Source: Liolophura sinensis (taxonomy: Eukaryota > Mollusca > Polyplacophora > Chitonida > Chitonidae). Taken from it: a stretch of DNA of 64,000 nt. The notes below the pieces were generated by a model. That model made no database searches. It had not been told where the DNA came from and worked only from the letters and a program-made list of their open reading frames with translations. Made by a program: the position numbers and the translations under genes. Where the stretch lies: NCBI RefSeq assembly GCF_032854445.1, contig NC_088300.1, positions 16,435,570-16,499,569 of the forward strand. Direction: 5' to 3'. The first letter of the stretch is position 1, and each line of letters begins with the position of its first letter. Shown here one piece after another: positions 22,036-48,041 of the stretch.

Positions 22036-22265
22036 TCACAACAAATCCATTATATGATAGTATCGAGATGTAGGAATCTCAAAACAGAAATCTTTTTGGC
22101 GTGGCCTCTTTATGCATACCCATATTATGCCTGCTATGGCGAGTAAGAAGACAAGCCCATAGATAAGCCCCAGGATAAGGGCCAGCGTCAGAGGGTTGAT
22201 CCCTGCAGGTCCACGGCCCACTGCTACCCTCGGGGAGGTGGTTGTTGTGCCTTGTGAGGTGTTAT
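22036..22265 (-). CDS. DSL gene alternative last exon B: transmembrane segment and short tail
   Basis: Starts [19 protein letters not shown] after a CTGTTGTAG acceptor (phase 1, same as exon A) and stops at 22036. The membrane segment [15 protein letters not shown] plus [12 protein letters not shown] is followed by a tail of only about 26 residues, [10 protein letters not shown] through YYHIMDLL. It has no NPxY. Because exon A has its own stop, A and B must be alternatives, not serial exons. B could also be the TM exon of an undetected neighbouring gene, which is less likely given the matching phase. Confidence 0.66.
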
Positions 22266-28200: not shown

Positions 28201-31200
28201 ACAATCATTAGTGAAAACAGTTTGGAATGAAATCAAATCTAAATTTGATATTTCCTTAAAACTGTGACAAAAATCTTCACCAGTCTTACCTTTTGACAAC
28301 TCAGATTTATGTGAACTGTCTCTGAGCTGATTACAGCACACCTGGCACACTTACCTTTAGGACATTCACAGAAGTATGTGAGATCATCACGCTGTAAGCA
28401 TACACCCTCGTTGAAGCAGTAGTTGGTTCCGCATGGCACATACGGTAAACCAGGTAAAGTCTCATCTGACAACAGAGACAACTTTATGTGAGGGCAAGTC
28501 TATTCAAAGGAACACATATGCTCATTCTTCTTGTTGGGCACAGAAATACCACAAGCTTTTCAGAGAAGACATTAACGCATTGTTTGGACATCTTTCTGCT
28601 CTTTCATACAAATGTTCATACGCCAAAAAAAAGGTAAATTCTAGCCAATAAAAAAAGAGGATTAACACTGCCCACTAGGTATAAAGCATTTATTTCTTTA
28701 TTTGATATGAAATTAATGCTGTGTATCAAGAATTTTTCAATTACATGTATATGAAGGCAGTCAGGCTTATGGGCGGAGGAAACCAGCGTGCTGGAGGAAA
28801 CCAGAGTGCTGGAGGAAACCAGAGTACTGGAGGAAACCAGAGTGCTGGAGGAAACCAGAGTGCTGGAGGAAACCAGAGTGCTGGAGTAAATTATCAACCT
28901 TGCTATATGTAGGTACCTGACAAAACCATGACATACAGAATCAGCCAGAGACAGAGGCCATTGTGCGACATTTGTGTCTCTGTACAATAATCAACAGAGC
29001 TGAGAAAAGCAGTTCCTCCCAGGGCTAAGGGGGATAATCAAACTTACTGCAGATCTTCCCAGTGAGGGGAGGGGGGACAGTCACAGTAGAAATCATCTAT
29101 GGACCAGTCCAGACATCGGCCGTTGGCAAGACAGGGATTAGGATCACAGTTGTTCAAGTTCTGTTCACAGTTCACACCACTTGTTCCTATTCAATCCAAA
29201 CAAAGGTAAGTTATATCACACCTTAAATAGAGTTACATGCCAAGTCATTATTTTATGAGGGTCCTCCGTGGCTCAGTTGGTTAACGCGCTAGCGCAGCAT
29301 AATGACCCAGGAGCCCTCTCACCAATGCCGTCGCTGTGAGTTCAAGTCCAGCTCATGGGAAGGTCTGCCAGCAACCTGCGGGGGGTCGTGGGTTTCCCCC
29401 AAGCTCTGTCCAGTTTCCTCCCACCATAATGCCGGCCGTCGTCGTATAAGTGAAATATTCTTGAGACGGCGTAAAACATCAATCAAATAAATAAATAAAT
29501 TATTTATGATGTTTAAGATGTGGAAGAAGTACCAATTGTTCAGAAACAGTGACATGAAATTTCTCACACAAAATGACTGTCAACTGGTCAACCATTTCAC
29601 AGATGGTTTATTGATCATACTATGGAGAAAAACAGTTACAAAACATCAAAATATGCCCTTGATTTTTTACCTGATACATAATACTTTATTACCAGAAGAT
29701 ATCTGAACACTTTATATGTATATCCCTCGTTCCTAAGTCCTTTTGTGAACTAACCTGAGCAAGATCTTCCACTTAGAAAACTTACTTTAAGTTTTGTGAA
29801 AGTGGCTTTAAGGTCTTGTTGTCATCAAAGGCCAAATAAAATATGAAAGCCTCTGACAATGTTAACATTTACATGATACAGTTAGTAATAAAAACATAGT
29901 TAAAAATCAGATTTATGTCAACAAACCAAACACATCCAAACTTCTGACAGCCAGACTCACCTTTCATGCAGGCACACCTGTACCTGGTGATCTCGTCAAT
30001 ACAAATGCCCTGGTTAAGACATGGCCTGCTGGCACAGTCATCAATATTCGTCTGACAGTTAAACCCTGTGAAGCCAGGTAAACACTCACAGAGGTAGGTC
30101 CTACTGTCAACTTCCTAAAACATTTTGAGGTAGACTGTTAATTTGGAAGTTAACATTGGGCCACCAGTTCAATCCAAAATAATATCGTAACTAAGCTTTA
30201 TGACTTTCTTTGTCCAATCAGGGTTCCAACTACAGTTCAGCCCAAATCAGTATTTTTGACTGAAATAGGTATCATGTATGGTGTTCTGGCATGGTATTAC
30301 AGTCAGGTAGCACTTTAAGGTATCTCAACATTGACTGAAATCAACTAAAAATATGCTGGCATTCAAACCAATGAACCAAATGGACAGCTAGGTTAAGGTA
30401 TTTCACTGACCATAACATTGACATATAGAAATACATGTAATTACTTACAATGCATGTTCCTCCATTAAAACATTTCTTGTGACACAAAAAGCTCTGGAAA
30501 ACATAAAAAAAAGAATTTATTTCAGTGAAACTGTCAGTATGCATTATACAGTCATGGAAAAAATTATTAGACCACTCATATTTTCTTTGGTTTCTTGTTC
30601 ATTTTAATGCCTGGCAACCCTAAAGGTGTATAACCGAAGATTACAATGAATACGACAAAAATCCAGCTGATTCCATAATACTTTGTCGTATTTGATATGC
30701 TTTAAGGTCAGTTGTATTCCTAGGGTGTATGCGAGGCAATTTTCATGCTTTCCATTTACATGCAGACTTACATAAAGAGTGGTTTCCTGTTTACATGTAG
30801 GCTTACATAAATAGGGGTCTCTTGTTTATATATTAAGACGCAGCACAACTCGGTAGTTGTCAGCTCCCATAATGCCTAAAACGAAAGAATTATGTGGAGC
30901 CAGAAAGGCAGCCATCTTGGCACAGCTGGATACTGGATTGAGCGAGCGACGAGTGGCCAAAAAACTGAAGATCTCTAAGACAGCAGTTCATTACACCAAG
31001 AAAAAGCAAGCCGAACATGGTACTACAAAACTGCTAGCTGGTCGAGGCAGGAAACGTCTTTCTACCCCACGAGATGACCAAGCACTCATCCGGTCCTGTA
31101 TCAAGAATCGTCGTCAGACCTCCAGAGACCTTAGAAATGAGTGGGCATTGTCAACAAATGTGACTTGTTCAGCAAGAACAGTTCGAAACCGACTTCTTGA

Positions 31201-34200
31201 AGCTGGTCTAAAGTCGCACAGGGCACGGAAGAAGCCCTTCATCAACGAGAGGCAGCGGAAGGCCCGCTTGCGTTTTGCGAGGGATCACAAGAATTGGACT
31301 GTTGATGATTGGGCTAAAGTTCTCTTCAGTGATGAATCCAATTTTGAGTTGATGCCTACTCCAGCCAACTTACTGGTTAGGAGGAAGCCTGGGGAAGCCT
31401 ACAAACCAGACTGCCTTGCTCCTACTGTAAAGCATGGGGGTGGATCAGTGATGATCTGGGGTTGTTTCAGTATGGGTGGAACAGGACAGATGCAGTTGTG
31501 TGAAGGGAGAATGAACCAAGTCACATACAGAGCTACTCTTGAAAACAGTCTTCTTCCATCAGCTGCTAAACTCTTTCCTGGCTCGAATGACTGGATTTTC
31601 CAACAAGACAATGCCCCTTGCCACACGGCAAGGTCAGTTAAAACCTGGATAGAGAACCGGAACATTCGAACCATGAATTGGCCTGCTCAGTCACCTGATC
31701 TGAATCCAATTGAAAACCTGTGGAATATTATCAAGTTCAAAATGGAGAACCACAAGCCCAAAAACAAAGCAAATTTGTTCGAATTTTTGCAACAGGAATG
31801 GGCTGCTGTGACTGCAGGGCAATGTAACAAACTGGTGGAGAGCATGCCAAGGTGCATGGCTGCAGTCATCAAAAACAATGGGCATGCAATCAAGTACTAA
31901 CTCCCGTATGAGACTGAGAGTCATGTGACTACGTGACTAGGAGACAGGAGAAAAAATGAAATGCCAAAATGTTTTTGAGAATACAGTTGCCACATCTACA
32001 GATGTATGAACTTAAGTGATTTTGGTCATTGTCAAGAAAGTCATAGAGAACTGATAGATATCACCTCTTAAATAAAACCCTTATGAACTATTTCTGTTTT
32101 CATCACTTTCTTTGCCCAAACAAATGTTCCTTCAGTTGTGCAAGGTATTAAAATGAACAAGAAATGGGAGAAAGCAAGGGTGGTCTAATAATTTTTTCCA
32201 TGACTGTACATGTAACTGCAGTGCTAACATTTATTTGATTAGAGTTTTACACCGAGCTCAAGAATATTTCACTTATATGACAGCGGTTAGCATTATGGTG
32301 GAAGGAAACCCAAGATCATCGGCAGCTAGCTGGCAGAGCTTCCCACATGACGGGTGTGCAGTGTAAATACCCATTTACAGTAAAATGCTATATACCTGTT
32401 TATTAAAATTCGCAGTACAGATCTACTTATCATTCATTATTACATAGGGACTTGTGTTTACTGTTTTCAGCATACATGTAACAAGACAAAAAAACATGCT
32501 TTGTTCTCATCTATCAATGTAGATTCAGGCCAGAAATTTGAAATAACTTATGTGCATAAGTTTCTACATCTGCCTAGGATGATATAAATATAGTCAATCA
32601 CCTATAATTTCATGGAATTTTTCCCCAGCTAATAACCCTGATGTATTAAGTTTTTGGAAATCTCCTGGGAAATTTTATGTCATAAAAAATTCTGGGATAC
32701 TTACTGTATACCTAGAAAAAAAATTAAGACCAAAAAGTATGTAAAAAAAACTTCACTGACCACTCTGACAGAATTCCCCGTAAAAACCTTCCAAGCAGAC
32801 ACAGCTGAATTCTCCAGGTTCTCCTTCCAAACAGACGGCGCCATTGAAGCACGGACCAGAGGCACACTCATCAGTATCTGAAAACAGGCATCAGGCCAAA
32901 GATAATATTCACACATTGTTTGTAGGTATTATCAAAGCAAGATATACGATTACAAGGACAAGTATCTCCTCTTGATAGAGATGTTTAAATGGGTAAGCAT
33001 GTGAAGATTTGAATCAATGCATGATTTCCATAGCTTTATACCATGTCAAGTTACAAAATCTTTAAAAACTACTTATAAAACTTGAGGATGTGTGATTGGG
33101 TCAAAAAGTCAAGAATGGTTTATTTGTAGTGCCAGCAGTAAGGTTTACTGTGCAGCTGGCATAGGAAATCTGTACAGTGCTAGATATCTACCTCTCAAAA
33201 TTAGAGTTAACACCAAAAACTGTGGGACCTTGAGCTGGATATGAGCATGTAGCCAAAATGTGTCAAGAGCTGGGAAGACTGACTTAGATCACAAAGGCGC
33301 TGCAAAAAGGGCTGCATCCCTTAACTTTGTTACCTTGTGAAGCATGCTATTTGATAATGTTCTTAAAAGTACTGCACCCCCCCCCCCCCTGAAATGACCA
33401 CAAGGGAGGTATACAGATGTAACTGAAAAACAGTCTGATCACGTTAAAAAGCAGCTGTTTAAAACATCCTAAATTTCAGTTGGTTGCTATAGAAAAAAAC
33501 AGAAATCTGATCAAATCAGCCACATTCATTTTATAAAGTACTGAATGGGTGGACGGCCATGTGTCATACACAGGATTTCCACTTACGTCATTATGACAAG
33601 ACAGTGATATCCTAGTACAAAATAAAGTACAGTATGATAAGGCTGCAAGCCCATCTCTTAACCTGGATACATATGTGATAAAATTACTGGATACATATGT
33701 GCTAAAATTACCAACAGAATATCTGCGAAAGTTTACATCAAATATTGTTTAATTAGATTTCTATATTCTATATACCACCAGACATTTAAATGGGAAGAAT
33801 GACCTATACCATGCCATAAGGCACATTGTCACACAGAACAGGGCTAAGCTTTGGCCAGCATAAGTGACCTTGCCAAATGTCACTCTTGCACATCATGTAA
33901 CTTACCAAGTTCACAACTGTCACCTGAGGAACCCCTCGAGGACAGCGACATATGTACGAGCCTGGGGTCCCCTTCTACAACAGGTTCCTCCGTTCATGCA
34001 GGGATTACTGTCACACTCATTCACATCTGCAAGCAAAAAGTAAGGAATCAAGAACAGTCTAATCAGGCCTTGACCTTAGAACTTGAAAAAACTTTCCAAT
34101 TCATTAAATCAAAATCACAAAAGCACGAAAATTTAGATTAATACATAACATTTTGACATTTCAAATGGACTGTGGGTGTCAAGATTTGGAGACCAATCAC

Positions 34201-37200
34201 TGATTGATTAATTGAAATGGTGTTTAAGGCTATGATCAAGAGATTTTTTTTCACTTGAATGATGGCTTTAATGCTGAAGTAAACAAATCAAACACTACAG
34301 AGATGTTGAAATAAATTCTTATAACACCCTAGCTAACTGATAGTTTTACTTACCTATACCGCAGAGTACCCCCTGGTAGCCACTTGACATGCGCAGGTGA
34401 AGTTGCCAAATTGCCTCCCTTGAGTACAGATGCCATCATTTTCACTACGGATTTAGGTATGCACTCATTAACATCTGTCTGGCACTGTTTACCTGACCAC
34501 TCCTATAGGACAAGTGCAGGTGAAGCTTCCACCTGGCTGCCGATTACAGGGCCTCCATTACGACACGGCTCCGACTGACAGGCATTGATTTTCTATCTCA
34601 CACTTGCTCCCTCGGAACCGGCTGGGCAGGAGCACCTGTATACGCCAGGGCGAGGCTGGCTACATCTCCCACCATTCTTACATGGATTGGGATCCACTTC
34701 GTTAATATCTTCGCCACAGTTTGGACCTGAGTAGCCATCGCGACAGAGGCAGGTGTTACGTACCAGGTGGTCCCTGACTACAGAGACCACCGTTACGACA
34801 AGGTGAAGAGTCACACTCGTTAATATCCGTTCGACACTGAGTACCGTTAAAACCATTGGCACACCTGCAGAAGAAGGTACCAAGGCTCACCTTCATCACA
34901 GGTGGCCCCATTATAACATGGACGGGACTCACACTCATCTATGTCGATGTCACAGTTGCGGCCAGTGTAGCCAGGTCACACAGTTGCAGGTGTAGGCTGC
35001 AGGTCGGTTTCTGCAGGCAGCTGCCTCCATTGCGGCACGGCTGTGATGCGCAGTAATCTACCTCACCCTGACATGTCCTCCACCGCTAAATCCTGGCCTG
35101 CAGGTGCAAACAAATGTCCCCAGGGGGACCCTGGCGACATGTACCCCCATTTCGACAGGGGCGTCTCTTGACACTCGTCTATAATCCGTGTCGCAAATAA
35201 TTCCAGTGTATCCTGCCTTGCACTCCGCAACGGAATGAGCCAGGTGCCCCCTCCACACAGCGACCATTTCTACAGGGGTTTTTAGCACACTCGTTGATGT
35301 CTGTTTCACACCGCTGCCCTGTAAAGCCTGTGGAGCACATACAGTAAATCTTCCAGGTACAGCATTACTGCAGCTTCCTCCATTCTGACAGGGGAAAGAT
35401 TTCACACTCATCTTTGTCAATCTCGCATAATTCACCCTCATAGCCCACAGGACATTGACAGATGAACGTACCGGGGGTACCCTCCACACAGCGCCCCTCT
35501 AGCACATGGGTTAGGAAAACACTCATCTATATCCCCTCCACACTGCTCTCCGAAGAAACCCTTGGGGCACTCGCACTGGTAAGAACCGGGACGCCCTTGG
35601 GTGCAGGTGCCTGAGTAAGACATGGGTTGGAACAGGCACTCATCAATGTCAACCTCACAATTTACACCTGTGAATCCCTGAAGACATGTACAGGTGTAAT
35701 CCCCCTGCCAGATCCTCACAACTTGCCCCATTCTCACATGGCTGAGCAGTGAACACTCGTTTATGTCTCTCTGACACAGGTTACCAGAGAATCCCGCCTT
35801 GCAGTCGCAGACAAACTTACCGGGGGCACCCTCACGACACGACGCTCCATTCTGACACGGTCGACTTTCACATTCGTCAATATCTGAAAATTTAATAACA
35901 TTTCATATTTCAGAACAACTGGCACTATGTTATTGCACTTAGCATTCAGAAACAATTATACATAATTTTTTCATTAAAAATGTTTTGCATAATCCTGTTT
36001 TGAACCGTTATTTCAGCATTAATTGCATGCCAATAACAGAATTACACAAAACGCATTTTTAAAGAACCTAATTCATACTTTTATCGTTTTGATTTTTAAT
36101 TTGCAGGGCACATGTAGTGAAGAGGTATCTTTAAGAGTTCCTTGAATATGATGCACTGCAAATTAGCTTTGCTGTGCACAACTGCTAAAATAAAACCTAG
36201 ACAGGTAAAACCAAATATTGAAACATACATGTATTTAGAACAACTTAAATGTCCTGTAACAAAACAATGAAAATGCCAAAAAATGCCATTACTGACCAAA
36301 GTAATTCTTGGACCACGACATTTCCTTTACAAACTTTAAACTTTAAACACCTCACTCACCGGTTCATCCTTAAGTTTAGGTCTATAAAGAATACTGTGGC
36401 CACCGAACATGTTCCCGTTCAAACTTGTTCGCTCAATTACTTAAGTTTCGGGTAAAATGTCAGCGTCGACAAATAACAAGTTCTCTAATTAGCTGACATA
36501 GTATTTTGATTGTCACTCACGGTCAGTCAGAGGATATTGATTGACACAGACGACTGGTCAATAATGTTGACTCACCAATCTGACAAGTCTCCCCAGTGAA
36601 GCCAGAAGGACACAGACATTTGAATGAGCCAATCAGATCACTACAGGTGCCTCCATTTGCACATGGACCACTCTGGCAGTCATCGATACCTGAAGAAGTT
36701 AGCGCCATACATATGTAATTCATACAATGTTGGTTTCTTACAACTTAGCAAAGATTACTCACAATTTTGTATCTCATATTTACTTCTTAGTTGTCATGCA
36801 AACCACACATTAGCCAAGGTACTCATTTTACCTGATTTCTACTGATCTTACAAACATGAATCTGAGGTTCGTTCAGAATAATCTAATGGACAAATTTCAG
36901 TTTCAGCAGTAAAAGTAATATTTAATGGTCTCTAATTGCCTCCAAAGATGCATTTTGAGTGATTACAGTATACCTGTCCGACGTACCTAGCTCACAGTAA
37001 ACCCCTGTGTACTTTGGCTTGCACATACAGGTGACATTCTTATCTCCTTCTTCATAGCTGCACGTTGCCTCATTTTTACACGGCGCACTCAGGCAAGGAT
37101 CTGAAATACCATCACTTATATCAGCGTTCATGTGATATCATGTGATTTCATCTATGATAATGGTGAAATACAAAGAAATCTTCAGGTCATAAAAAGGCCG

Positions 37201-40200
37201 ACACCCATCTAAGGGGAGGTAATCTGCAAAGGGGGATAACTCACACATGCCACAGGAAAGAATTACATGCATGGTACATGCAGTTGTTGTTTTAGTACTG
37301 TTTGATTTTTACTTTTTCTTATGTATAAAATGAAAGAAGTTAATGAAGAGAACCAACAATATGTAACATGACAAGTCCTGCACACCTGTGGCTTGACGTC
37401 TTTGCCTCTCAAGGATTGTTGCTCGATACTCCTCCAGAAGTTCACTGTCATGTGACCCTCCATCCTCTCCCCAGTTGTCCTCAGAGGCCCGGTAGTGGAC
37501 AGGCCTAGGCGGGTATTGTCGGACAGGCTGGTTATCCCAGGAATCCAGTCCCAGTACAGGCCTTTTGTATTTTAGTCCTTCATCCTGTTCATTGTGGTTG
37601 TGTGATTGCCAAACCTTTCGGCTAACATCATTATGTTCTGGTTCAAGTAAAGACAAAATAAGCCATGAAATAATATTATTAATTACATGTACATATAACA
37701 TTATAACATACACAGTCTTATACAGTACTTGGGGTAAGACTGAATTAAGTTTTCAAATGGAATCCATATAAACAATTGTACAAACATTTGCAGAAAGAAC
37801 CTTTCAGGGATGTACGTGGCATAGCTTTTAATGAAACCACAGCTCAAAACTAGAATAAACGGCGCAAGATACACCGCTGAAAACAATATGTACAAATCAA
37901 ATTAAATACACTTAAATTTAAATTTTAAGGTGGGCTTTTGGTTCAAACTGCCAATGGCAAAATACTGTGACTTCACATCACTTTTTTTTTCCTTTAACTT
38001 CAAAAACAAGCCAATTTTTCGTGAACACGGTTTTCCACAATCTATGACAATCTTCGACCAACAACATATACAACCAGAGGCTCGCATCAAGTCTTTTACT
38101 TGTAACCTTTTTGGGTCATAAGGGCTATTCCAACATTAAAAGATGTGTCATCAGAGTACCTAAACAGTGGATATATGGTGCACAAAGCCCACCATAGAAT
38201 TTAACCATTGCTCTTAACATTACTTAGTAATTTAGATTCTTTTCACTTTAATGGAACATGCATAATATTAGCCTTTTTTATGTTATAATAAGCTTTGCTC
38301 ATGTTGATCACAGCTTGCGTACCTGAGATCAAGACGTCACAGAGAACACCTGTCCAGCCAGGCTGACAGATCCTCCTTCCCTGCTCGTCACAGGTGTAGT
38401 GATCAGAAGGACCCGCCTTACATTTCACTTCACAGTCCTCACCAAATGAGCCGTAACTACAGAACCACTGAACAACAGAAGAGAAAAACTGTTCTTGTCA
38501 ACTACCAGAAACAGGCAACAAATACTACTACGTGTTCTATCTACATATCATTATGTATTTTGTATACCTTATATGCATTTAAATAGTATGCATACATAAA
38601 TATAGCACATTTGATACAAATACATGTATAAAGTTCCATATGTCCCATTTCTTCATCTGAGAAAGGACAATGCATTACATATGCAAATGTGGGATAAAGA
38701 ATTGTAATGTGAACAAGGTTATTATAATTTATATCCATATATCCTTTAATAAATTTCTGATGTCACCAAAATATTGATTTAAGAAACTGTTCAAAATATT
38801 AGATCGTACCTTTAAAACTAGATATGTATTTGATAAGTTATGAATTACAGGAAACACTGACAAAGTCACACAAAATTTAGAACTGAGTTGTATTGCTACA
38901 TGCAATGCAATACAAGGTGTTCTTACTCTGACGAAGATAAAATAATCCTTATCCAGCTCTTTGTGTTTCTCATCTGTGAATGTCTGTTCCACTTTGACTC
39001 TCAGCCACTGATCATGACCCAACTGTCCTCGTGGGAAAGTAAGAGCAGACAACTCTGACCTGCTAACTTCCAACTCTTCCTCACCTGGCATCCTTTGTGA
39101 AATACTGACGACAAGATCAAGAGGCTGAAAATATGAAAGACAGCTTTAGTTTTCCTGATATCTCAAGACAATATTTATTTAACCGAGAAAAAATTACAAT
39201 TATGCAAAGGGCAATGAAAAGAAAAAAAGCACTGGTAGAAAAATAACATTGTAATATGGACAAGAAAAGTGACCTGTCAAAAAGGGCGTATAAAAAGTCC
39301 CGTTTCAGACAAAAGCCATGAAGTGAGAATGGATGCGTAGGTAGGACTGACCCTAATATTCTCCGTCAATAGAACCTTTTATACAGCATATAATGGCTTT
39401 GTAACATTAACAAGAGGCTGGCACACAGCAGAAAAAGTGAAGGGATTATGAAATGTTGTCTTAGACATGATCCTCAAACAAGTGACATTTCACATGTGCC
39501 AGTTTGGGCTGGATCGGGCTGAACCGCCAGAATGAAGTCACTCCAGATCTTCAGCAAACACAGGCCTAAGCGAACAGTCCCAAGTAACTCCCTAAAGGTC
39601 ACAGGTTACAGCATGATGCCTAGAGGCTACCGCAAGCAAATGGAGAAATGCTCACTGAGAAAATGCAGATTCCGCCTGGCTTTAAATTTCAGCCTCTAAT
39701 GTAACACTTGTACTGAATTCTTTCCAAAATACCATAAATTACCTGTTTCATGGCATTATTTTTAGAGCATTTTTTTTTTCAAAACAATTTCATACAGTCA
39801 ATGGAAAAACACACATGGTTATTTTATAAAAGACATATTCATGTAGCTTAGGTTAAGAAAAGAATATTAAATGCACAAATGACTTGGTCTATTCATTCAA
39901 AACATATATATTGACAAGATCTATATGGCAAAAACAATATCTTTTTCCTTATCAACTGAGACAGAAAAGTTCTCTAAAATTATATTTGAACACCAGGTAA
40001 ACACCCACACAAAAGCCTCTACCTTATATCCCTTTGTTCATAAGCTGGTCACCCAACTCACCTTCCTAAAATGGTCTGTCTCAAACCTTAGAGACTGGAC
40101 CGATTCCTTCTCAGCCACCTCCATAAGTTCAGAGTCATCTTTGTCTTTTTTACAAGCTGCAAACATAAATGTATTTATTTTTTTATTTATTTACTTTAAT

Positions 40201-43200
40201 TATACTTATTAAAATCTTTGTTTTATGTGCAGAGTGAAAGAGTATAGAAAGTCAACATCATCTAATTTGCGGGAAATGTAGACTGTCGCAGCAATTGTCC
40301 CTGTTAAAAATACATTTACACCGTCAGTAATTTCTGGAAAAACAGGAGAATTATAAAAAACATTAAGACTGGCAAAACAAAAGATTACTTTAAAGTTTCA
40401 TTTTTGTTTAATTTTTAATGTCCGCTTGCCACAATCCACACAAAATGCTGCCTCATGCTGTACAAACATTTCACTTGGACAACATCAGTCAGGTTCATGT
40501 GTCAAAAAAATCTGGCAGAACTCCGAGGGAAACACACGAGCTAAACCAGACATCTGATAGCACTACTGATAATAAAATGAGCGTGAGAAATTGTGTACTC
40601 CCACTGCAATTAAATGTTTATTAGCTAAAAATAGCAGATTAGATGTCATCAAATTTAGAAGAATCAGTAGTTAGAAATGACTTGGTAAAAGACATTACGC
40701 GCTATATGAAAATGAACAGTCTTAACCAATACTGGGCATTTCCCACCTAAAACAGCCCAAGTGGTGTACTCTTGTGTTCTTTTTAGTAGCATGTCACTGC
40801 TCCTGTACAGTTGGGCATGTAAAGCAAACAGGTAGTCAATAAGCACATGAAATGATGGGAATTTACACAACTTGGTATCAACTTGTGTAGACAGGAATCC
40901 CCATTCTAGGCATTTTATTCACAAAACTTTGTACAAATGTCTGTCATATAACACTTTGTTCCAACACATTTTGACCAACTCCATTCTTGCAGAAAGTTTT
41001 CTGAATATTTTGAACCATGTAATACTTAATGGTATGGTATCAATTAGCATTGTGATTTTCAAGTTACAAGTGGTTGTGACCATTTCAACAATAACAAAAA
41101 ATATTTTTTCCCCACATCACCATACATCATTAAATTCATTTTTGTTACTGACAAGGATATTTTCCGCTTCTTCTAACCGAGTCTAACCCTAGTGTAACTG
41201 TTTATGGAAACAGAGAGATCAGATCAGCATCCTGTGAATATGCACAACAGGTACACCTGTACAGGTAGAGCAGACACTAACAGGGTCTACCTGTGATATA
41301 TGTAGTCCCATCATCCATGTGCTAACACAAAGAGAGCGTGAGCGGCATTCTAACGAGTTCTTTTTTCTCAGATGACACTTACACCTAGGACAACACATAA
41401 CAAACAGGTGTGTCCTCAGGTAAGTTAGTCACCTCACCACCAGGTAGACGGCGGCAGGTGTACTAGGAGAGTGTACTAATCAGAATCCCATTATACCTGC
41501 CCACAGGTGAGTCTTAACAAACTAGTCCAGGATATCCTCATGTTTTTTACTTATGTTATTTGTTTGGAGCTTAATGGTGCTTCAGCCACATCACAACAGT
41601 ACCATCTTGTGGAAGGAAGATTCCACTGGTATCAAAATTGATGTCCAGAAAAATCACAATTACATTAAGATTACAGATGGTATTCTGCCATTACTTACAT
41701 GAAGTCTAGTCATACCAAACATGAAGTCTAGTCATACCAAACACATAAATCACAGCGGAGAATCTCAATCTACATTAACTGAATAGTCTTTTTTAAAACT
41801 AATTTCTACAATTTTGCATTTGCCTTCCAGTGATTTTATTTCATGCAATTCGTGCTTCACCTTTGGCAGTGATATGATCTTGAATGCATATATGCATTTT
41901 GGGGATTTTAAATAATACTTAAATTTTTATACTTATATCTTTCAGTCATATGACAAGGTGTCATTAGGTTTGTTTACATATACTGTGTCCCCTTGTGCCA
42001 TAACAAGTTCACGTCGCCCAAAAACTGCCACCACTGAAGTATCCTGCCAAAGACACCAGACATGACACCCCACCCAGTTACATTATACTGACACCGGGCC
42101 AACCAGTCCTGTTTCCTTGCTCTAACCTCTCAGTGCTGAGTGCCAAGAGAGGAGTTGACAAGTATCATCTTTGAAGTCCTTTGTATTACCTGACCGAGTT
42201 TTGATCCCAGGTCTCCCAACTTCAAACATAACGTTGAAGATTGGTAGCCAGAAGTTTACTAACTTTCATAATCAGACTATTTGTCACGGAAGATGCTTAA
42301 AGGCCACGTTACAAAAGTTCTTCTTGAAGTGCAGTACTGCTCTATCCTAAAGATATATGTGGCATGGATGTGGGTCGGAGCATCTGCAAAGGGTGTAAGA
42401 AAGGGTGTAAGACCACAGGAAGATGCCGATCATGCAGCCAAGAGGGGTGTACAATCCACGGATAATGGGTATAGGATCCGACTATCATCCGCGTAGGGTG
42501 ATCTAAGGGTGACACTAACTCATCTAACTTACAACAAATGCCACAGTGTGGGACATCACCAACCTTGTTATAGAGCATTCACAAATGGTCCAGTTCCCGC
42601 AGTGGTTACTAATTCACACATAATCATCATAATATGCAGACCGAGTTTTGACTGTTTCTCCAATTATTCCCTATCAGTGCTAAAGTGTTAAATATAGCGT
42701 ATAGTTATAACAAAAATTATACCTGATAATTTTGGCACCACAAATGGCTAATTTGTAATATTAGTACAGCTTCTGGTGAGAACTTACGACGTCACTTGTC
42801 CTGGAATGCGCTTATGATTTCACATTTCCAATCACACTAATAAACTTCATCGAAAAATGGGAAAGCAAAACTCCAAAGGCCTGCACTGGGCTAGCTTACC
42901 TTTTTTACTGGTTTGAATAAGTGAGTGTTAAGCAAATGACAAACCATTCACTAATAGCACTGAAAAGTCTAACTGAATAGAATTTCACTATGATATAAGA
43001 TGCAAAAACAAAAACATCATTTTGATGATTGAGTTAATCAAAACTAATGTGAGTGGAGGCTCAGATTACGCCATCACAATTGATAGCCACCAGAGCTTGA
43101 CAAAATGCCTGACTGCTAAGTGTACATTGTTCAAACAGTCCCATGTCACTTCTTTGTAAACAGTGGCTACACAAGATTTCTACAAATGTAAGAGGATACA

Positions 43201-46200
43201 TGTAGTGACAGAATCATAATCATGGCTATAATGACCACCTACAATGAACAGGTTAGACTAAACAGACTCATCCGGTGGATTTCAATACTTTTTTCTTCTC
43301 ATAAACAAAGGATTTGCATGTAGGTAAATACTCCCAAAGAGATCATTTTTGTTAGAAATCTTCAGCAAATAGCAGAGGTCTAGTCTGGATGTCTCCTTTA
43401 AGACAATGACACAATGACCATTTCCATTTAAAAAAAAAACAGTAGTGGGGGAGGAGGGGAGTTTTTTCAACTTTTCAATATTTCTCCATTTCCATGCTAT
43501 GCTAATCTATGCTTTGATTTGTACATTGTGATTTTTTCTGTCATATGACGATGACGAGTCATTAGGTGTGTGTGGCAGGGTGAGTCCATGCTGCAAAAAG
43601 TGCTGCCACCACAGACACCTGACATGACACTCCATGACACAGGTATTATTCTCACACTAGGCCAACCAGTCCTTCTTCCTTGCTCTAGCCTCTCTGAGCA
43701 CCAAGCAAGCCAGGAACAAGCACCATTCTTAAAGTCTTACATAAGATTTGACAGGGCTTTGATGCCAGATCTTCCAACTTCCCGACAATCTAACAATCAG
43801 GCCACCGAAGCAGTTCACCACATCCACATGAGTAGGGCCTTTACATTCCCAGAGACGCAGGCAAAATATACGGACAAGTCTTTACCACAGATTGCAAGAA
43901 AGACAAAAAATACACATAACTTCATCCATTTCATTGTCATCTCATCCTTGCATTCAACACGACGGTATCCCTAGATATCTAGTATAATCCTCCACATCAA
44001 ACTACTAGCAAACTCATAAAGCTACTAGCAAATGCATGAAGCTACTAGCAAATGTATAAAGTTACTAGCAACCGCATAAAGCTACTAGCAAACGTATATA
44101 CTAGCAAAAGTATCAAGCTATTAAATCTCTATATATTTTCCACAAGGCATAAAACAGGATAGCGCAGGATGGTGCAGCATGGCAACAAGTGTACAGCTTT
44201 ATTAGATAGAATGTTCACTGTGTAGGAACAGACCATCTATGTCCACAGAATGTCCACGTTTGTTAGAGACTCCCAAGGTGATGGGCAGGGAAAGTTTACC
44301 CAACCAGTCTGTCTTTACCTGGCCTGAAACATTAATTAAATGAAGTTTGTTTAAGACAGAGGCAAGGTTGACATTTCACTGCCATTCTCTCCTGTAAGAG
44401 TCTAGCAAGAACTCTACATTCTGTCAGCACGCATGTACAAGCCTCTAAGGTCTATCTTACTACTTAGCATACAAAATACCAAATGTGTGTTTTAAACAAC
44501 ATCTTGAAATGCTGTCTTTGTTCTTCTTGTTCCAACTGCTCTGCATTCCCAGTTCAACAGAGGGGTTTTACATTATTCTCCATTGCCAATTTATTTATTT
44601 ATTTATTGGATTGATGTTTTACCACATACTCAAGAATATTTCCCTTATAAGACGGCAGCCAGCATTATGGTGGGAGGAAACCGGGCAGAGCCCGGGGGAA
44701 ACCCACAACCATCCGCAGGTTGCTGACAGACCTTTCCACTTACAGCCAGACAGGAAGCCATTGCCAATTTCATTTTTGAAATGACAGGACAAATTTCCTA
44801 TCATAAAGATGAGACCTTCTTCTAAAATAGCTTTCTTATTACAATTTTCACCAAAAAGTTATAACTGATAAAACAAGCAAAGATAGCTACATGTATGTGG
44901 TACCCAGAGGAAGGCCAAGAGGATTATCATACCTGTGGTTGTCAGGTAAAACTCCGATCAATACCTAACCTGCAGATTTTGATGAGAAATCCTTCAGAGT
45001 TAATAGGATGATGCAGATAGAGCCAGAATCCGTGGGGCAAGGGAGGATGAGGGTTATCCAGCCTGACCCTGGGAGACAGCACAGTGTGATCCTAAGTCTA
45101 ACTACTACATCCACATCACATATCACCTGACTAAAATCGGAAGACGTATCTACCCCCTCTCTCACGAAAACTCTTGTACAATGGAAAAAGTGAAAAAATT
45201 TTTCCATTTATTATCATAGTGCTATTTATCACATAATGTATCTATTTTATTGTGGACAATTATGCATGAAATAAATAAAGAGAGGGCTCATCCTTCGCAT
45301 CTTACCTGGAACATTTCAAATAAAGAGTCTATATCATATATATGATTTTCAGTTATTTATTCACCTAATCGTTGCTTAACGCCTCATCAAAACTTAGAAT
45401 AGGTGGTTTAGTTAGGTAGGTTTAAGATTTCCAATGAACATGTGCATGTATGCCTGTGTTTACTTTGATATAAGCTGTACCTGAAGAAAACTCCATATTC
45501 CACAGTTCAAACTGGATTATCCACTACACCTACAGATAAATATGTAAACAATGGATAATAACCCCCAACTGAAACCAAGCTTGGAGTAACACAGAATCAT
45601 AATCTGTCCAGGTAAGATGTTACTGTACAGGTGAGCTGGCTGTTCACCTGTCCAAGACGAACAGGTTTGTGAGGGTGTAGGGAGCGGGGTAGTGTGTCGG
45701 TCAGGGGTGTGTACACAGCTCACAGCACCTGACCCTGTCAAACACAGCCTGTGTGCTGCTCTCATAGACACACTTCTAGATTAGCCCAGCTCAAACATTG
45801 CCTCTGATAGAAAAATGCTTTCAAACTGCCAATTTTAACAAATTGTCATAATGTGTGTGGAAACAGTGTTCAAAGTCAGCTTGAGTGTGTACATAAACAC
45901 ACAGGTGAAGTGATAATCCTCCTCAGAGCAGCCAGCCACCTGCCTAGGAGGCTTGAAGAAACGATGCTTTGAAAGTCCTTGCCCAAGAATGATACTATAA
46001 AATTTTAAACACTGTTTTCTACAATTTTATATATGAAATTATACATGAACTGAAATCATTAAGTACAAGCCCAAAATGATTCTTTCTTCAAACATGTAAA
46101 ACTATGTTTTTACACCAAAAGCAAAAGAAAGATACATGTACCCAGGACATTAAACTGCCAAGTTAGCTCATTATACCCCAAACCCAAAATCCAACCTGTG

Positions 46201-48041
46201 TACCTCCATTACAAACTGCCAAATTACCTCGTTATACCCCAAACCCCAAATCCAACCAGTGTACCTCCATTACAAACTGCCAAGTTACCTCATTATACCC
46301 CAAACCCAAAATCCAACCTGTGTACCTCCATGACAAACTGTCAAGTTAACCCATTATACCCAAACCCAAAACCCAACCTGTGTACCTCCATAACAAACTG
46401 CCAAGTTACCTCATTATACCCCATTATTCCCCAAACCCAAAATCCACCCTGTGCACCTCCATGACAAATGACTGTAATAGACATTTACTTGGTTAGCAAT
46501 ATAGTTCCATGACTTTGTACCCCTACATCAACATGCAATGTAGACATCACAGAAGACATTTGCTGCACAAATCATATTACAACAATTAAATGTATGTTTG
46601 GGGTTTTACGTCCTACTTAACCATTTCCTAGCCGTATGATGTGGAGGAGTCATTATATGTGTGTGTACATATCCTGTGTCTTTTTGTGGCAGAGCGAGTT
46701 CAAGATGCCACTACATTATCATGCCAAAGACACCAGACATGACACCCCACCCAGTCACATTATACTGACACTAGACCTACTTCCTTGCTCTAACCTCTCA
46801 AAGCTGAGCACCAAGTAAGGCAGCAACAAGTACCATATTTAAAATCTTTGGTATGAACCTACCCTGCTTTGATTCCTATTCTCCATATGTCATTAGGCAG
46901 TGGTTGACTCAGTTTCTTAGGTGTGTCACTTTATCACAATACACACCTATTCACACAACATCCTTAATAGAATGACCAGTATCATGTTTCAACATGTTTC
47001 ATTACTTACTGTACATAAACTGAATCCATACTTGCTGTGAAAGCAAAAATGTGGAAAAAATTCACAGATTTCTCCAAGGTCACCTACAACTACAAACTCT
47101 AACAGGTGGAAACATCGTATTAGTAAAATTAGTCATATTTGATCTACATGTATGTATGTGTAAGCAGAACAAATGTGTTGAAATCTGAAGGAACACTCAC
47201 CTGGTGTTAAGACAGTCCCCCTCCCCACAGAGCAATCTGCCTCATCCATCTCCTCTGGGGTAAAGGTGGCACACACATGTACTGTCAGACAGCACCCTTC
47301 CCCACTCACACAGAGTGAGTCCCGACTCTGTCTGATAAAGTCTGAGACGTCCACCTCTATCACCACATTACAGAACACTGCCTGAAATACACAAAATTTC
47401 TATTATACCCCACAATTAGAAGTACAGGAACATGTATACAAATATATATTTATTTATTTCATTGGTGTTTTACGCCGTACTGAAGAGTATTTCACTTATA
47501 CAATAGCAGCCTGCATTTTGGTGAGAGTTAAATGGGTGGAGCCCAGGGGAAGCCCACAACCATCTGCAAGTTGCTGGCACACCTTCCCATGTATGGCAAA
47601 ATGATGATGACAACCATCAGAAATATACAACATCTTGCATAACACATGACTATCTGAGGCATAAGTCCAACCATCTGAAATATACAACAGTTTTTTGTAA
47701 CGAACCACCTAAAATACAAAATAACACGTACAATACCACCTGAAACACACAAGATCACATATGAAACCACCTGAAATGCACGAAATCTCATATAGGCTAC
47801 ATGTAACACCACCTGAAATATTCAAGACTACGTATAATATCACTTGAAACCTACAAAAGCTTGAATAACACATCAATATTGAAAGTACAAGTACACAAAG
47901 TTTTGTTATCAACCATCTGAAATACACAACATCCTGTGCATGTATACAAACACAACATCTCCATTGTTTTCCTTGAATGAAAAGAGTGAAACTTACCTTT
48001 AAATATATTATGAAGAGAAGATATTTCAATATGACATCCAT
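22036..48041 (-). CDS. DSL-family (Delta/Jagged-like) EGF-repeat transmembrane protein, whole gene, ~17 exons
   Basis: Multi-exon gene read from 48041 down. Exons inferred from GT-AG sites and matching phases: 48041-47997, 47381-47201, 40156-40062, 39124-38927, 38467-38323, 37637-37386, 37100-36987, 36689-36576, 35883-34354, 34026-33906, 32877-32761, 30493-30449, 30114-29961, 29186-29048, 28465-28355, 27522-27382, then last exon 23907-23528 or 22265-22036. Visible order: signal peptide, MNNL-like region with a VCATF core, DSL domain (about residues 175-218), charged linker with RQRR, about 22 EGF repeats, transmembrane segment, tail. Known family role: membrane-bound ligands of Notch at cell contacts. 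That this protein binds Notch is inference. The DSL domain is divergent, and the EGF number exceeds that of Delta (fewer than ten) and Jagged (about 16). No VWC domain is seen. Indels break several EGF exons, and one exon junction (32761 to 30493) does not match in phase. A Notch-like or other EGF receptor is less likely because of the N-terminal MNNL/DSL pair. Confidence 0.82.
23528..23907 (-). CDS. DSL gene alternative last exon A: transmembrane segment and long tail
   Basis: Starts [15 protein letters not shown] after TGCCCACAG (phase 1) and ends at a stop at 23528. A hydrophobic segment, [12 protein letters not shown] then [14 protein letters not shown], about exon residues 29-54, spans the membrane. 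The cytoplasmic tail of about 72 residues is rich in Ser/Thr/Tyr and ends [16 protein letters not shown] fits the N-P-x-Y motif of PTB-domain and endocytic adaptors; that role is inference. No homology to known Delta or Jagged tails is recognised. Confidence 0.78.
23970..25130. repeat. 37-bp minisatellite with 166-bp higher-order unit
   Basis: About 31 copies of AGAACATACCAGTACAATCC plus AGGTAAACAAGCTACAC. A shortened variant (CTACACAGAACATACCAG, 18 bp) joins four full units to give a 166-bp period; the same CCATGTTAACAAGC variant recurs at 24416, 24582 and 24748. Lies in the intron before alternative last exon A. Confidence 0.95.
25310..26520. repeat. 36-bp minisatellite, about 27 copies
   Basis: Unit CCACATCCATACAATCTGCC plus TGTACACTTCAGATTT, degenerating at both edges. 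The period is a multiple of three and free of stops in several frames on both strands, producing long false ORFs. Adjacent to the 37-bp array in the same intron. Confidence 0.95.
27382..27522 (-). CDS. DSL gene exon 16: last common EGF exon
   Basis: 141 nt, phase 1 to 1. Encodes [19 protein letters not shown], then [17 protein letters not shown] and GLFGKVCG. Its donor (TGTG|GTGAGT) ends in phase 1 with a lone G, which joins equally well to either last exon (23907 or 22265). Confidence 0.82.
27770..28127 (-). repeat. tRNA-derived SINE, family B, full copy
   Basis: On the minus strand it starts GGCCTGGATAGCACAGTTGG, a pol III A-box-like sequence, with a B-box-like GGATCAATCC after it, then a body shared with 1971-2310, and ends in a GAGTGAGT-type tail. 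Sits in a DSL gene intron. Confidence 0.75.
28355..28465 (-). CDS. DSL gene exon 15: EGF repeat, last Cys in exon 16
   Basis: 111 nt, phase 1 to 1. Encodes [17 protein letters not shown] and FNEGVC through CECPKG (the first residue depends on the preceding exon's last base). Joined to exon 16 it continues FNGSSC. Acceptor TTGTCAG, donor AAAG|GTAAGT. Confidence 0.78.
28765..28890. repeat. 18-bp minisatellite
   Basis: About six copies of GGAGGAAACCAGAGTGCT in a DSL gene intron. GGAGGAAACC also occurs in the family A SINE, so the array may have grown from a SINE piece. Confidence 0.88.
29048..29186 (-). CDS. DSL gene exon 14: EGF repeat with one extra base
   Basis: Starts [18 protein letters not shown] and runs to [14 protein letters not shown]. 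After a run of C/G (about 29062-29072) the expected LTGKIC is one base out of frame. The exon is 139 nt; removing one base gives phase 1 to 1 and joins exon 15. W-x-I-D-D-F-Y-C is close to the D-L-V-N-D-F-Y-C of Jagged EGF repeats. Confidence 0.75.
29259..29500 (+). repeat. tRNA-derived SINE, family A, internal deletion
   Basis: Starts GGGTCCTCCGTGGCTCAGTT and ends in AATAAATAAATAAAT. Lacks the GGCTTCCTCTCCGGCC block present at 13440 and 56200. Located about 73 bp upstream (on the gene strand) of DSL exon 14. Confidence 0.85.
29961..30114 (-). CDS. DSL gene exon 13: EGF half plus most of the next EGF
   Basis: 154 nt, phase 0 to 1. [20 protein letters not shown] ends the preceding [19 protein letters not shown] through CACMKG starts the next, whose last Cys lies in exon 14 (TSGVNC). 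Acceptor GTTTTAG, donor AAAG|GTGAGT. Confidence 0.78.
30449..30493 (-). CDS. DSL gene exon 12: 45-nt exon, first half of an EGF
   Basis: Encodes [15 protein letters not shown] between TTTTCCAG and GTAAGT (phase 0 to 0). Joined to the next exon it completes a six-Cys EGF. It lies 55 bp from the Tc1 element's 5' end. The upstream partner in phase 0 is not found. Confidence 0.62.
30549..32206 (+). mobile_element. Tc1/mariner (DD34E) DNA transposon, complete
   Basis: 1658 bp flanked by TA on each side. Terminal inverted repeats begin CAGTCATGG and match perfectly for 27 bp (30549-30575 against 32180-32206). An inner block of about 18 bp (30591-30608, TTTCTTGTTCATTTTAAT) also recurs inverted near the 3' end. 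It contains an intact transposase ORF. It is inserted in an intron of the DSL gene, opposite in strand. Confidence 0.95.
30872..31900 (+). CDS. Tc1-like transposase, intact
   Basis: 342 residues from ATG at 30872 ([16 protein letters not shown]) to a stop at 31900, the usual Tc1 length. The N-terminal half shows the paired helix-turn-helix region ([18 protein letters not shown], then a second with [13 protein letters not shown]) and a GRGRKR AT-hook-like stretch between. The DDE/D catalytic domain has D154 (LFSDESNF), D246 ([10 protein letters not shown]) and E281 ([11 protein letters not shown]), with 34 residues between the last two, so DD34E. No stop or frameshift is seen. The enzyme cuts and pastes the element at TA sites. 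The intact frame and perfect TIRs imply recent movement. Confidence 0.96.
   Translation: MPKTKELCGARKAAILAQLDTGLSERRVAKKLKISKTAVHYTKKKQAEHGTTKLLAGRGRKRLSTPRDDQALIRSCIKNRRQTSRDLRNEWALSTNVTCSARTVRNRLLEAGLKSHRARKKPFINERQRKARLRFARDHKNWTVDDWAKVLFSDESNFELMPTPANLLVRRKPGEAYKPDCLAPTVKHGGGSVMIWGCFSMGGTGQMQLCEGRMNQVTYRATLENSLLPSAAKLFPGSNDWIFQQDNAPCHTARSVKTWIENRNIRTMNWPAQSPDLNPIENLWNIIKFKMENHKPKNKANLFEFLQQEWAAVTAGQCNKLVESMPRCMAAVIKNNGHAIKY
32232..32348 (-). repeat. family A SINE fragment beside the Tc1 element
   Basis: ATTTGATTAGAGTTTTACAC then CGAGCTCAAGAATATTTCAC, GCATTATGGTGGAAGGAAAC and a remnant of the head region. It begins 26 bp after the transposon end. Confidence 0.65.
32761..32877 (-). CDS. 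DSL gene exon 11: EGF repeat
   Basis: 117 nt, phase 1 to 1, no indels. Encodes [16 protein letters not shown] and ends [14 protein letters not shown]. The donor G|GTCAGT is weaker than the others. Its phase does not match the next recognised exon at 30493, so a small exon between them is unseen or the junction is used differently. Confidence 0.75.
33906..34026 (-). CDS. DSL gene exon 10: EGF repeat with two missing bases
   Basis: Starts [16 protein letters not shown], then shifts frame. The middle reads [13 protein letters not shown] in a second frame, and the end SSGDSCEL reads in a third. Both shifts fall in G runs (the shift points are within about 33940-33980). The 121 nt length is two short of phase 1 to 1, exactly what two lost bases would give. 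Acceptor TTGCAG and donor CTTG|GTAAGT are intact. Confidence 0.72.
34195..34270 (-). repeat. SINE family C tail fragment
   Basis: TCACTGATTGATTAATTGAA, GGTGTTTAAGGCTATGATCA and AGAGATTTTTTTTCACTTG, parallel to the family C 3' end. In the intron between DSL exons 9 and 10. Confidence 0.4.
34354..35883 (-). CDS. DSL gene exon 9: thirteen EGF repeats in one exon, with indels
   Basis: Starts [16 protein letters not shown] after TTTTCAG and closes near GIG at TATAG|GTAAGT. Thirteen EGF units can be followed by hopping between frames; starts include [40 protein letters not shown] and [10 protein letters not shown]. Most are calcium-binding type (D-I-N/D-E-C). No unit after the first stays fully in one frame: single-base indels, often in G or C runs, move the EGF signature between frames, and stops appear when one frame is forced. 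The length (1530 nt) still suits phase 1 to 1. Every other EGF exon holds roughly one repeat, so a 13-repeat exon is unusual here. Sequence error is the preferred explanation; a decayed array is the alternative. Confidence 0.72.
36576..36689 (-). CDS. DSL gene exon 8: EGF repeat 2
   Basis: 114 nt, phase 1 to 1. Encodes [19 protein letters not shown] and closes [14 protein letters not shown]. Typical EGF with P-C-x-N-G-G-T-C. Acceptor CTTCAG, donor ATTG|GTGAGT. Confidence 0.85.
36987..37100 (-). CDS. DSL gene exon 7: EGF repeat 1
   Basis: 114 nt, phase 1 to 1. Encodes [14 protein letters not shown], then [15 protein letters not shown]. Six Cys in EGF spacing. No D-x-D/N-E calcium-binding start, so it looks non-calcium-binding. 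Acceptor TTTCAG, donor CTAG|GTACGT. Confidence 0.8.
37386..37637 (-). CDS. DSL gene exon 6: charged linker with furin-type site
   Basis: 252 nt, phase 1 to 1, no Cys. Runs from [18 protein letters not shown] through a Pro/Arg-rich part to [16 protein letters not shown]. It separates the DSL domain from the first EGF, which in known DSL ligands are adjacent. RQRR at about residues 299-302 fits the R-X-K/R-R proprotein convertase consensus. No known domain is recognised. Confidence 0.72.
38323..38467 (-). CDS. DSL gene exon 5: DSL domain
   Basis: 145 nt, phase 0 to 1. Encodes [16 protein letters not shown], then [19 protein letters not shown] and VLC. The six-Cys spacing, the H-Y-T-C, and the closing C-x-P-G-W-x-G-x-x-C are hallmarks of the DSL domain. 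The usual R-D-D-x-F-G stretch between Cys 3 and Cys 4 is replaced by KAGPSDHY, so the Notch-contact loop is altered. The call rests on the motif plus the preceding N-terminal domain. Confidence 0.82.
38927..39124 (-). CDS. DSL gene exon 4: end of N-terminal domain
   Basis: 198 nt, phase 0 to 0. Starts [17 protein letters not shown] and ends DKDYFIFVR, with donor AGA|GTAAGA. The VVSIS strand and the terminal YFIFVR run correspond to the strands that precede the DSL domain in family members (Y-R-F-V-C in Delta). Confidence 0.72.
40062..40156 (-). CDS. DSL gene exon 3: acidic segment of N-terminal domain
   Basis: 95 nt, phase 1 to 0. Encodes [18 protein letters not shown] and ends [10 protein letters not shown] at an AAG|GTGAGT donor. 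The LRFETDHF piece sits where Delta/Jagged have their I-R-F-P-F segment. Flanked by a 7 kb intron upstream that is full of SINE copies. Confidence 0.68.
41695..41745. repeat. 22-bp tandem duplication
   Basis: CATGAAGTCTAGTCATACCA occurs twice in a row. Confidence 0.85.
41930..42245 (-). repeat. family B-like SINE
   Basis: Shares TTTCAGTCATATGAC, CACCAGACATGACACCCCAC, CATTATACTGACAC and the GTTTTGATCCCAGGTCTCCC head region with copies at 43528 and 46595. In the intron between DSL exons 2 and 3. Confidence 0.65.
43528..43805 (-). repeat. family B-like SINE
   Basis: CTGTCATATGACGATGACG, then CACCTGACATGACACTCCA, GGCCAACCAGTCCTTCTTCC and TTTGATGCCAGATCTTCCAA, parallel to the 41930 and 46595 copies. 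Confidence 0.65.
43995..44120. repeat. 20-bp minisatellite
   Basis: About six copies of CTACTAGCAAATGCATAAAG with substitutions. Confidence 0.85.
44588..44758 (-). repeat. family A SINE, 5'-truncated
   Basis: TTTATTTATTTATTTATTGG, TGATGTTTTACCACATACTC, GCCAGCATTATGGTGGGAGG, CAGAGCCCGGGGGAAACCCA and AGGTTGCTGACAGACC. Lacks the tRNA head. Confidence 0.8.
46150..46465. repeat. about 60-bp tandem repeat, five copies
   Basis: Unit AACTGCCAAGTTACCTCATT, ATACCCCAAACCCAAAATCC, AACCTGTGTACCTCCATTAC in order. Intron between DSL exons 2 and 3. Confidence 0.9.
46595..46910 (-). repeat. family B-like SINE
   Basis: GGGGTTTTACGTCCTACTTA followed by CCTAGCCGTATGATGTGG and CACCAGACATGACACCCCAC. Same body as 41930-42245, in the same intron. 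Confidence 0.65.
47201..47381 (-). CDS. DSL gene exon 2: MNNL-like N-terminal region
   Basis: Opens [15 protein letters not shown] after a TTTCAG acceptor and ends ...VLTPG at a CAG|GTGAGT donor (181 nt, phase 0 to 1). The stretch [12 protein letters not shown] followed by a C-x-x-G...VLTPG turn lines up with the conserved N-terminal core of Delta and Jagged, where a Cys precedes an F-x-V-C-L motif and a later Cys-Tyr-Gly turn. This N-terminal region is a C2-like fold in known ligands. Confidence 0.75.
47444..47592 (-). repeat. family A SINE, 5'-truncated
   Basis: TATTTATTTATTTCATTGGT, TTTTACGCCGTACTGAAGAG and GGAGCCCAGGGGAAGCCCAC. It begins about 60 bp upstream (on the gene strand) of DSL exon 2, within intron 1. 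Confidence 0.78.
47590..47945. repeat. degenerate tandem repeat around ACCACCTGAAATACAC
   Basis: Motifs AACCATCTGAAATATACAAC, ACCACCTAAAATACAAAATA, ACCACCTGAAACACACAAG and ACCACCTGAAATGCACG recur at irregular 30-45 bp steps. Located in intron 1 of the DSL gene. Confidence 0.6.
47997..48041 (-). CDS. DSL gene exon 1: start codon and signal peptide
   Basis: ATG at 48041 opens [15 protein letters not shown], a short hydrophobic leader, followed directly by a good donor (AAG|GTAAGT). The exon is 45 nt and ends in phase 0, matching the next exon. Cleavage probably falls a few residues into exon 2. Any 5' untranslated exon further upstream was not identified. Confidence 0.75.

Follow-up and report, generated by a model that had tools for sequence, protein, structure and literature searches.

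The window, by which we mean the whole stretch of 64,000 nucleotides analysed here, carries on its minus strand a gene which we take, with roughly even confidence, to belong to the DSL (Notch-ligand) superfamily and to encode a membrane protein with a single transmembrane pass, namely a divergent paralogue whose canonical binding to Notch is probably reduced and whose sixth exon was probably gained. At least ten DSL loci, this gene included, are present in the genome. The predicted product starts with a signal peptide, followed by a diverged stretch where C2/MNNL would be expected and by the DSL domain; 22 ordinary EGFs, a transmembrane segment (TM) and a short tail complete it. An earlier note on this DNA had proposed a divergent DSL protein, and this is borne out by the Pfam and genome-wide DSL scores, by an exon chain which joins in frame and by matches among the sequences of the PDB.

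Exons 1 to 8 (48041 to 36576, minus strand) were joined in frame to 381 open residues, with AG ahead of exons 2 to 8 and GT behind exons 1 to 8. The gene extends past the range initially noted, down to a TM exon ending at position 23528 (minus strand). Across the complete chain of 17 exons, AG is present at each of the 16 acceptors and GT at each of the 16 donors, those of exon 6 included. The chain is composed of the following features, given in positions of the window:

47997..48041, minus strand: exon 1, start codon and likely signal peptide, donor gtaagt
47201..47381, minus strand: exon 2, N-terminal Cys-bearing region, located where MNNL/C2 would be, ends in phase 1
40062..40156, minus strand: exon 3, phase 1 to phase 0
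38927..39124, minus strand: exon 4, preceded by a phase-0 intron
38323..38467, minus strand: exon 5, DSL domain with six Cys and a short Cys3-Cys4 loop
37386..37637, minus strand: exon 6, probable exon for a charged Cys-free linker of 84 residues, phase 1 to phase 1, ends RQRR-QAT
36987..37100, minus strand: exon 7, EGF 1, an ordinary EGF and not of DOS type
36576..36689, minus strand: exon 8, EGF 2
34354..35883, minus strand: exon 9, 13 EGFs within a single exon, 23 frame slips in this assembly
33906..34026, minus strand: exon 10, one EGF, two frame slips
32761..32877, minus strand: exon 11, one EGF
30449..30493, minus strand: exon 12, first half of an EGF, phase mismatch with exon 11, weak profile match (23.0)
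29961..30114, minus strand: exon 13, EGF parts
29048..29186, minus strand: exon 14, EGF parts, one frame slip
28355..28465, minus strand: exon 15, EGF part
27382..27522, minus strand: exon 16, EGF parts
23528..23907, minus strand: exon 17 (TM-A), transmembrane segment, short cytoplasmic tail and stop
22036..22265, minus strand: TM-B, possible alternative last exon, likewise phase 1, encoding a second transmembrane segment and a stop

Taken alone, exon 1 is weak (45 bp, GC 0.22). The phases are continuous through exon 8 into exon 9. Exons 2 to 8, 11 to 13, 15 and 16 as well as the TM exon are open in the assembly; exons 9, 10 and 14 are not. The 22 EGFs and the TM exon follow each other in order, with the frame slips and the one phase mismatch (exons 11/12) lying within the chain. 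The hydropathy of TM-A reaches 3.06 across 19 residues. TM-A and TM-B align with a score of 64, which was reached by none of 1000 shuffles, a test that is flattering here since shuffling disperses hydrophobic runs; both may represent alternative last exons. Scans of the window for tRNAs and Rfam families gave no matches.

The six-Cys DSL domain that had been read from exon 5 was recognised by the Pfam model PF01414 with 34.6 bits (cut-off 24.2). For the determination of further DSL loci, the 609-Mb assembly with its 632 contigs was searched, in which the window is located on contig C6. The DSL model matched 12 places in the whole genome, the window with 39.5 bits, and these places correspond to ten loci: the window gene and nine others, labelled D1 to D9. 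In a sequence search of the PDB, the best match was DLL1 (4xbm, E 1.8e-05), and the matches below E 0.2 were DSL-ligand chains, i.e., Delta-like, Serrate and Jagged. Up to E 1 the search comprised 13 sequences, with DLL1 at the top followed by Delta-like, Serrate, Jagged and Delta chains; two lysozymes in this list (E 0.66 and 0.67) were regarded as chance matches. A small AlphaFold2 model of the DSL exon alone, folded together with six relatives, reached a pLDDT of 81.4 and a pTM of 0.51. The alignment used for this purpose contained seven of the ten DSL loci, with D4, D5 and D9 omitted. A tree of the DSL domains (12 rows, 47 columns) displayed very long branches for the window gene and D8, and none of its nine inner branches was well supported; therefore no placement of the window gene is claimed.

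The paralogue D8 (C1:87.05 Mb) allowed a comparison of the exon order. It consists of an MNNL exon, DSL, EGF1, EGF2 and a single exon with 12 EGFs. D8 shares with the window gene this exon order, phase 1 after the exon in the MNNL position and after DSL, and phase 0 before DSL. The exon before its DSL was read as ending with SIQVK in phase 0, its DSL exon starts with TYC, and its EGF1 begins with DNPCFSAPC, compared to DPCLSAPC in the window. A simple pattern search for exon 3 of D8 yielded no candidates. The differences are a missing linker exon, an MNNL match over the Pfam cut-off and the presence of Phe in the DSL loop. Moreover, the 12 EGFs of the large exon of D8 are encoded without any frame slip, whereas the 13 EGFs of exon 9 contain 23. 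Because D8 carries the same exon order, we consider the DSL and EGF exons of the window as one gene; together with the unbroken phases up to exon 9, this supports the assignment of exons 1 to 6 and the EGF exons to a single gene. The best donor candidate directly after DSL is in phase 1 in the window gene as well as in D1, D2, D3 and D8, a property which the window gene has in common with the canonical loci D1 to D3. In these three, parts of DOS-type EGFs follow the DSL domain, as judged by eye.

In known ligand structures C2, DSL and EGF1 are arranged in a row. Exon 6 would insert 84 residues between the latter two. Its product contains no Cys, is rich in E, R and D and ends with the RQRR-QAT stretch given above. 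The GC content of exon 6 is 0.504, compared to 0.321 and 0.357 in flanks of equal length, and a level this high was reached in 9 of 1267 overlapping intron windows of the same length. The open frame comprises 147 codons and the composition of the exon is protein-like. We scored its splice sites with a model derived from the gene's own other exons, a small set, by leaving one out. With 5.1 the acceptor is mid-range among the 15 others (0.9 to 12.4), and the donor with 3.2 scores below 14 of the 15 others (1.3 to 12.8). Within the introns, 11.5% of 1418 AG sites and 10.7% of 1988 GT sites scored as high as those of exon 6. Codon bias, trained on 21 exons (2016 codons) from other loci, was discarded as proof of coding: 14 of 173 null frames were as high, and the +1 frame of exon 6 itself was higher. 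A search for relatives of exon 6 in the genome detected none beyond the exon itself, the next match having an E of 2.55. On these grounds exon 6 is a probable but unproven coding exon.

Since exon 6 has phase 1 at either edge, its omission leaves the frame intact. This property also fits an explanation in which exon 6 is non-coding or rarely used and DSL is joined straight to EGF1, as in an ordinary divergent Delta-like gene. We regard this as a serious possibility, albeit one that we tend to doubt. The weak donor, the uninformative codon bias and the lack of a relative in the genome are in line with it, and so is D8, whose DSL and EGF1 exons are about 300 bp apart, which leaves scarcely space for an exon of 252 bp. 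Opposed to it are the sharp GC step at the edges of exon 6, the mid-range acceptor, the 147-codon frame and the protein-like, Cys-free composition. Of the Cys-free stretch of 84 residues proposed between DSL and EGF1, the open frame and the fitting edges and phases thus stand, and its status as an exon is probable. The further claim, that DSL is uncoupled from EGF1, holds if exon 6 is spliced in and fails if it is skipped, the frame being kept either way.

Returning to the reading in which exon 6 is coding, it appears as an exon gained within an intron, because D8 has the same exon order without it. We therefore consider it probable that the exon arose inside a phase-1 intron which the relatives have as well, and that it represents a symmetric, possibly optional cassette. 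RQRR is the sole RX[RK]R motif in the 381-residue product; the motif was present in 9.8% of shuffled linkers. Furin cleavage follows the rule R-X-[KR]-R, to which RQRR of exon 6 conforms. With exon 6 included, the head would be located on a flexible linker and a furin-type cut may occur at RQRR. After such a cut nothing covalent would hold the head, because the linker is devoid of Cys. One could imagine that splicing of the exon 6 cassette, in combination with furin acting at RQRR, decides whether the DSL head stays tethered or is shed, and that the choice of TM-A or TM-B sets the tail, but we consider this full scheme improbable. Within the literature searched (titles and openings of abstracts), no linker exon between DSL and EGF with a furin site was described.

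The second characteristic of the window gene is the loop between Cys 3 and Cys 4 of the DSL domain. Here the earlier note had reported a changed Notch-contact stretch, and the comparison with further loci agrees. The window gene has nine residues between the two Cys (KAGPSDHYT), compared to eleven with the core RDDxFGH in D1, D2, DLL1 and the Delta-like chain 4xl1 (CRPRDDxFGHxxC). D9 is likewise two residues short at this position. All six Cys, HYTC and PGWTG are retained in the DSL domain of the window. According to a review, the conserved face of human Jagged1 includes F199, R201, R203 and F207 (PMC3415683). By manual placement on the alignment, the corresponding residues of the window gene are K, K and G, with the fourth position deleted; the change of R201 to K is a mild one. 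Judged from the sequence, the window gene does not show the conserved Notch-contact residues that characterize canonical DSL members, and altered Notch binding of its protein is plausible. The loss of the contact Phe is not special to the window gene, because among the nine other loci just D1, D2 and D8 keep it; it is absent in D3 to D7 and in D9.

A working Notch ligand with canonical binding in spite of the altered loop, in which the spacer merely adds reach, seems unlikely to us. Such a protein would be compatible with the preserved Cys frame of DSL, with HYTC and PGWTG, and with the presence of a membrane anchor. Furthermore D3, which has DOS-type EGFs, is also without the contact Phe and carries an Ile instead. 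Against canonical binding speak the positions of JAG1 R203 and F207, which are changed or lost, the loop shortened by two residues and the absence of DOS-type EGFs. The EGFs 1 and 2 are ordinary ones, different from the DOS type of canonical Delta and Jagged proteins, and the EGF_DL_JAG model scored 15.7 bits in the 381-residue product (cut-off 27), with the match located in the tail of DSL.

The divergent paralogue that we favour also differs in its N-terminus. An MNNL-like core, as suggested earlier, was not recovered: Pfam MNNL had no match in the 381-residue product at E up to 1, and the N-terminal part of 160 residues matched no Pfam family at E up to 10. In a comparison by hhalign, the N-terminal stretch of the window alone against six MNNL exons reached a probability of 0.2, and the linker as a control reached 0.5. 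For this MNNL alignment six of nine genomic places were used, those of D8, D3 and C8:44.67 Mb being omitted. Local alignments of the N-terminal region with D1, D2 and D8 were matched by 1505, 1178 and 815 of 2000 shuffles, respectively; for the N-terminal region of D8 against D1 or D2, none of 2000 shuffles reached the score. The MNNL exon of D8 exceeds the Pfam cut-off (25.6 bits against 22.5). A joint profile of the window and D8 compared with MNNL gave 91.3, a value which leans on D8, because D8 alone passes Pfam MNNL. The introns speak for a diverged C2: judged by eye, the phase-0 intron ahead of exon 4 seems to match the phase-0 intron after FSWP in the C2 region of D1 and D2, and phase 1 at the end of exon 2 recurs at the end of the MNNL exon of D8. 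From the position, the intron phases and the MNNL match of the paralogue, a diverged C2 in the N-terminus of the window protein is likely but unproven. A further MNNL match (25.4 bits) was observed at C8:44672021-44672158, a stretch of C8 on which the DSL search gave no match.

The EGF array was counted exon by exon. The 22 EGFs are distributed as 1, 1, 13, 1 and 1 over exons 7 to 11, and five more are encoded by exons 12 to 16, where four of the five are split by introns and were joined by eye. EGFs 1 and 2, inside the range first noted, read cleanly, and 13 of the 22 are located in exon 9 with its frame slips. The number of about 22 proposed before was thus confirmed, and it does not fall outside the range of the family, since Delta proteins with 0 to 75 EGFs are reported by Gazave et al. 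(PMC2770060).

For a frame-tolerant alignment of exon 9, an EGF profile was established from 11 units of D8 and three of the window. It revealed 13 EGFs with 23 slips, Cys at 76 of 77 Cys-column codons and no stop, with a score of 875.6 (two shuffles gave 18.6 and 14.8). Based on the D8 units only, the profile scored 804.7; the number of slips was again 23, of which 22 had unchanged positions, and Cys was once more read at 76 of the 77 codons. With the combined profile the large exon of D8 contained no slips, a control that is not independent as EGFs of D8 are part of the profile. In the region 20000-36570 the 11 remaining stretches obtained chance-level EGF-profile scores only (12.6 to 18.4). 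Searched as DNA against the genome, exon 9 matched itself and no second copy. Homopolymers coincided with 6 of the 26 frame slips, compared to 0.12 for control positions, which is no strong association.

Since 76 of 77 Cys are kept, the slips of exon 9 are read as indels of the assembly rather than as decay, and we infer assembly errors as the cause of the indels. Neutral change in animals comprises several substitutions per indel. If each indel were accompanied by 2 or 5 substitutions, the expected number of Cys codons hit would be 6.2 or 15.4, and the probability that at most one is hit amounts to 0.015 or 3.3e-06, respectively. At 1 or fewer substitutions per indel this probability is 0.19 and 0.54, values compatible with decay. 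A decaying pseudogene, to which the slips in exons 9, 10 and 14 (23, 2 and 1), the exon 11/12 mismatch, the single copy found by the DNA search and the missing strong tie to homopolymers could be attributed, is quite unlikely in view of the kept Cys, the stop-free slipped frame, the low probabilities at 2 or 5 substitutions per indel and the open exons 2 to 8, 11 to 13, 15, 16 and TM.

Divergent relatives from invertebrates are already known, which makes the window gene an unusual variant and not a new kind. With Delta, Jagged and Serrate it shares the six-Cys DSL domain and, in the predicted chain, the EGF array, a single TM and a likely signal peptide. In contrast to Delta and Jagged, an MNNL was not detected by Pfam, the R-D-D-x-F-G loop is lost, EGF1-2 of DOS type are absent, the EGFs number 22, and a probable linker exon is located between DSL and EGF1. 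Seven Delta genes are reported for Lottia (Gazave et al., PMC2770060), and the same work describes MNLL for the majority of deuterostome Deltas, unlike those of protostomes. For Platynereis, three Delta-like genes of uncertain origin (dl-like1-3) and additionally DSL-like1-3 are listed (PMC5356439). A survey of lophotrochozoans recorded 138 DSL genes and a rapid differentiation of the combination of DSL and EGF (PMC8166818). The window gene resembles these lophotrochozoan Delta-like and DSL-like proteins, as far as the excerpts characterize them, in its divergent DSL with EGFs and in the highly variable EGF number. It joins a known and loosely defined set of divergent DSL/EGF genes, within which it stands out by the rebuilt loop, by EGFs that are not of DOS type and by the probable spacer. 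The excerpted descriptions of DSL proteins from Platynereis, Lottia and lophotrochozoans do not mention a Cys-free exon at the junction of DSL and EGF1, so that its probable linker would set the window gene apart.

In the resulting picture the DSL head would be presented on a long EGF stalk and the canonical contact of DSL with EGF11 would not be used. With this contact unused, the window protein may therefore bind Notch weakly, modulate it or serve as its decoy, or else be the ligand of another receptor. A naturally occurring DSL protein with a rebuilt contact loop and a cleavable spacer behind DSL would be a convenient test of the parts that are needed for Notch binding and pulling force, and would also illustrate how extra DSL genes of invertebrates drift from Notch. 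If exon 6 is not used, the gene is merely another divergent DSL paralogue.

The searches revealed further combinations of domains at other loci. D5 is a mixture of DSL, EGF and Thr-rich stretches. On C7 (8.088-8.091 Mb; L017 and L018) three DSL matches were detected, two of them inside an open frame of 842 residues which mixes DSL, EGF and Thr/Ser-rich, mucin-like stretches. A CBM_14 chitin-binding domain (63.2 bits; L024) was found at C1:87060028-87060262, 2.4 kb past the large EGF exon of D8.

Within the window, the intron between the EGF exons 11 and 12 harbors an element of the Tc1/mariner type (30549-32206, plus strand) with identical inverted ends of 26 bases and TA flanking each end. 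Its transposase frame is open over 342 codons and matches HTH_Tnp_Tc3_2 (74.2 bits) and DDE_3 (65.6 bits) of Pfam. The intron before the TM exon contains two large minisatellites at 23978-25131 and 25422-26464 with units of 37 and 36 bp, respectively, the latter of which yields long spurious Cys-rich frames. A neighboring open frame (54682-55308, minus strand) belongs to the UPF0669/C6orf120 putative cytokine family (132.1 bits).
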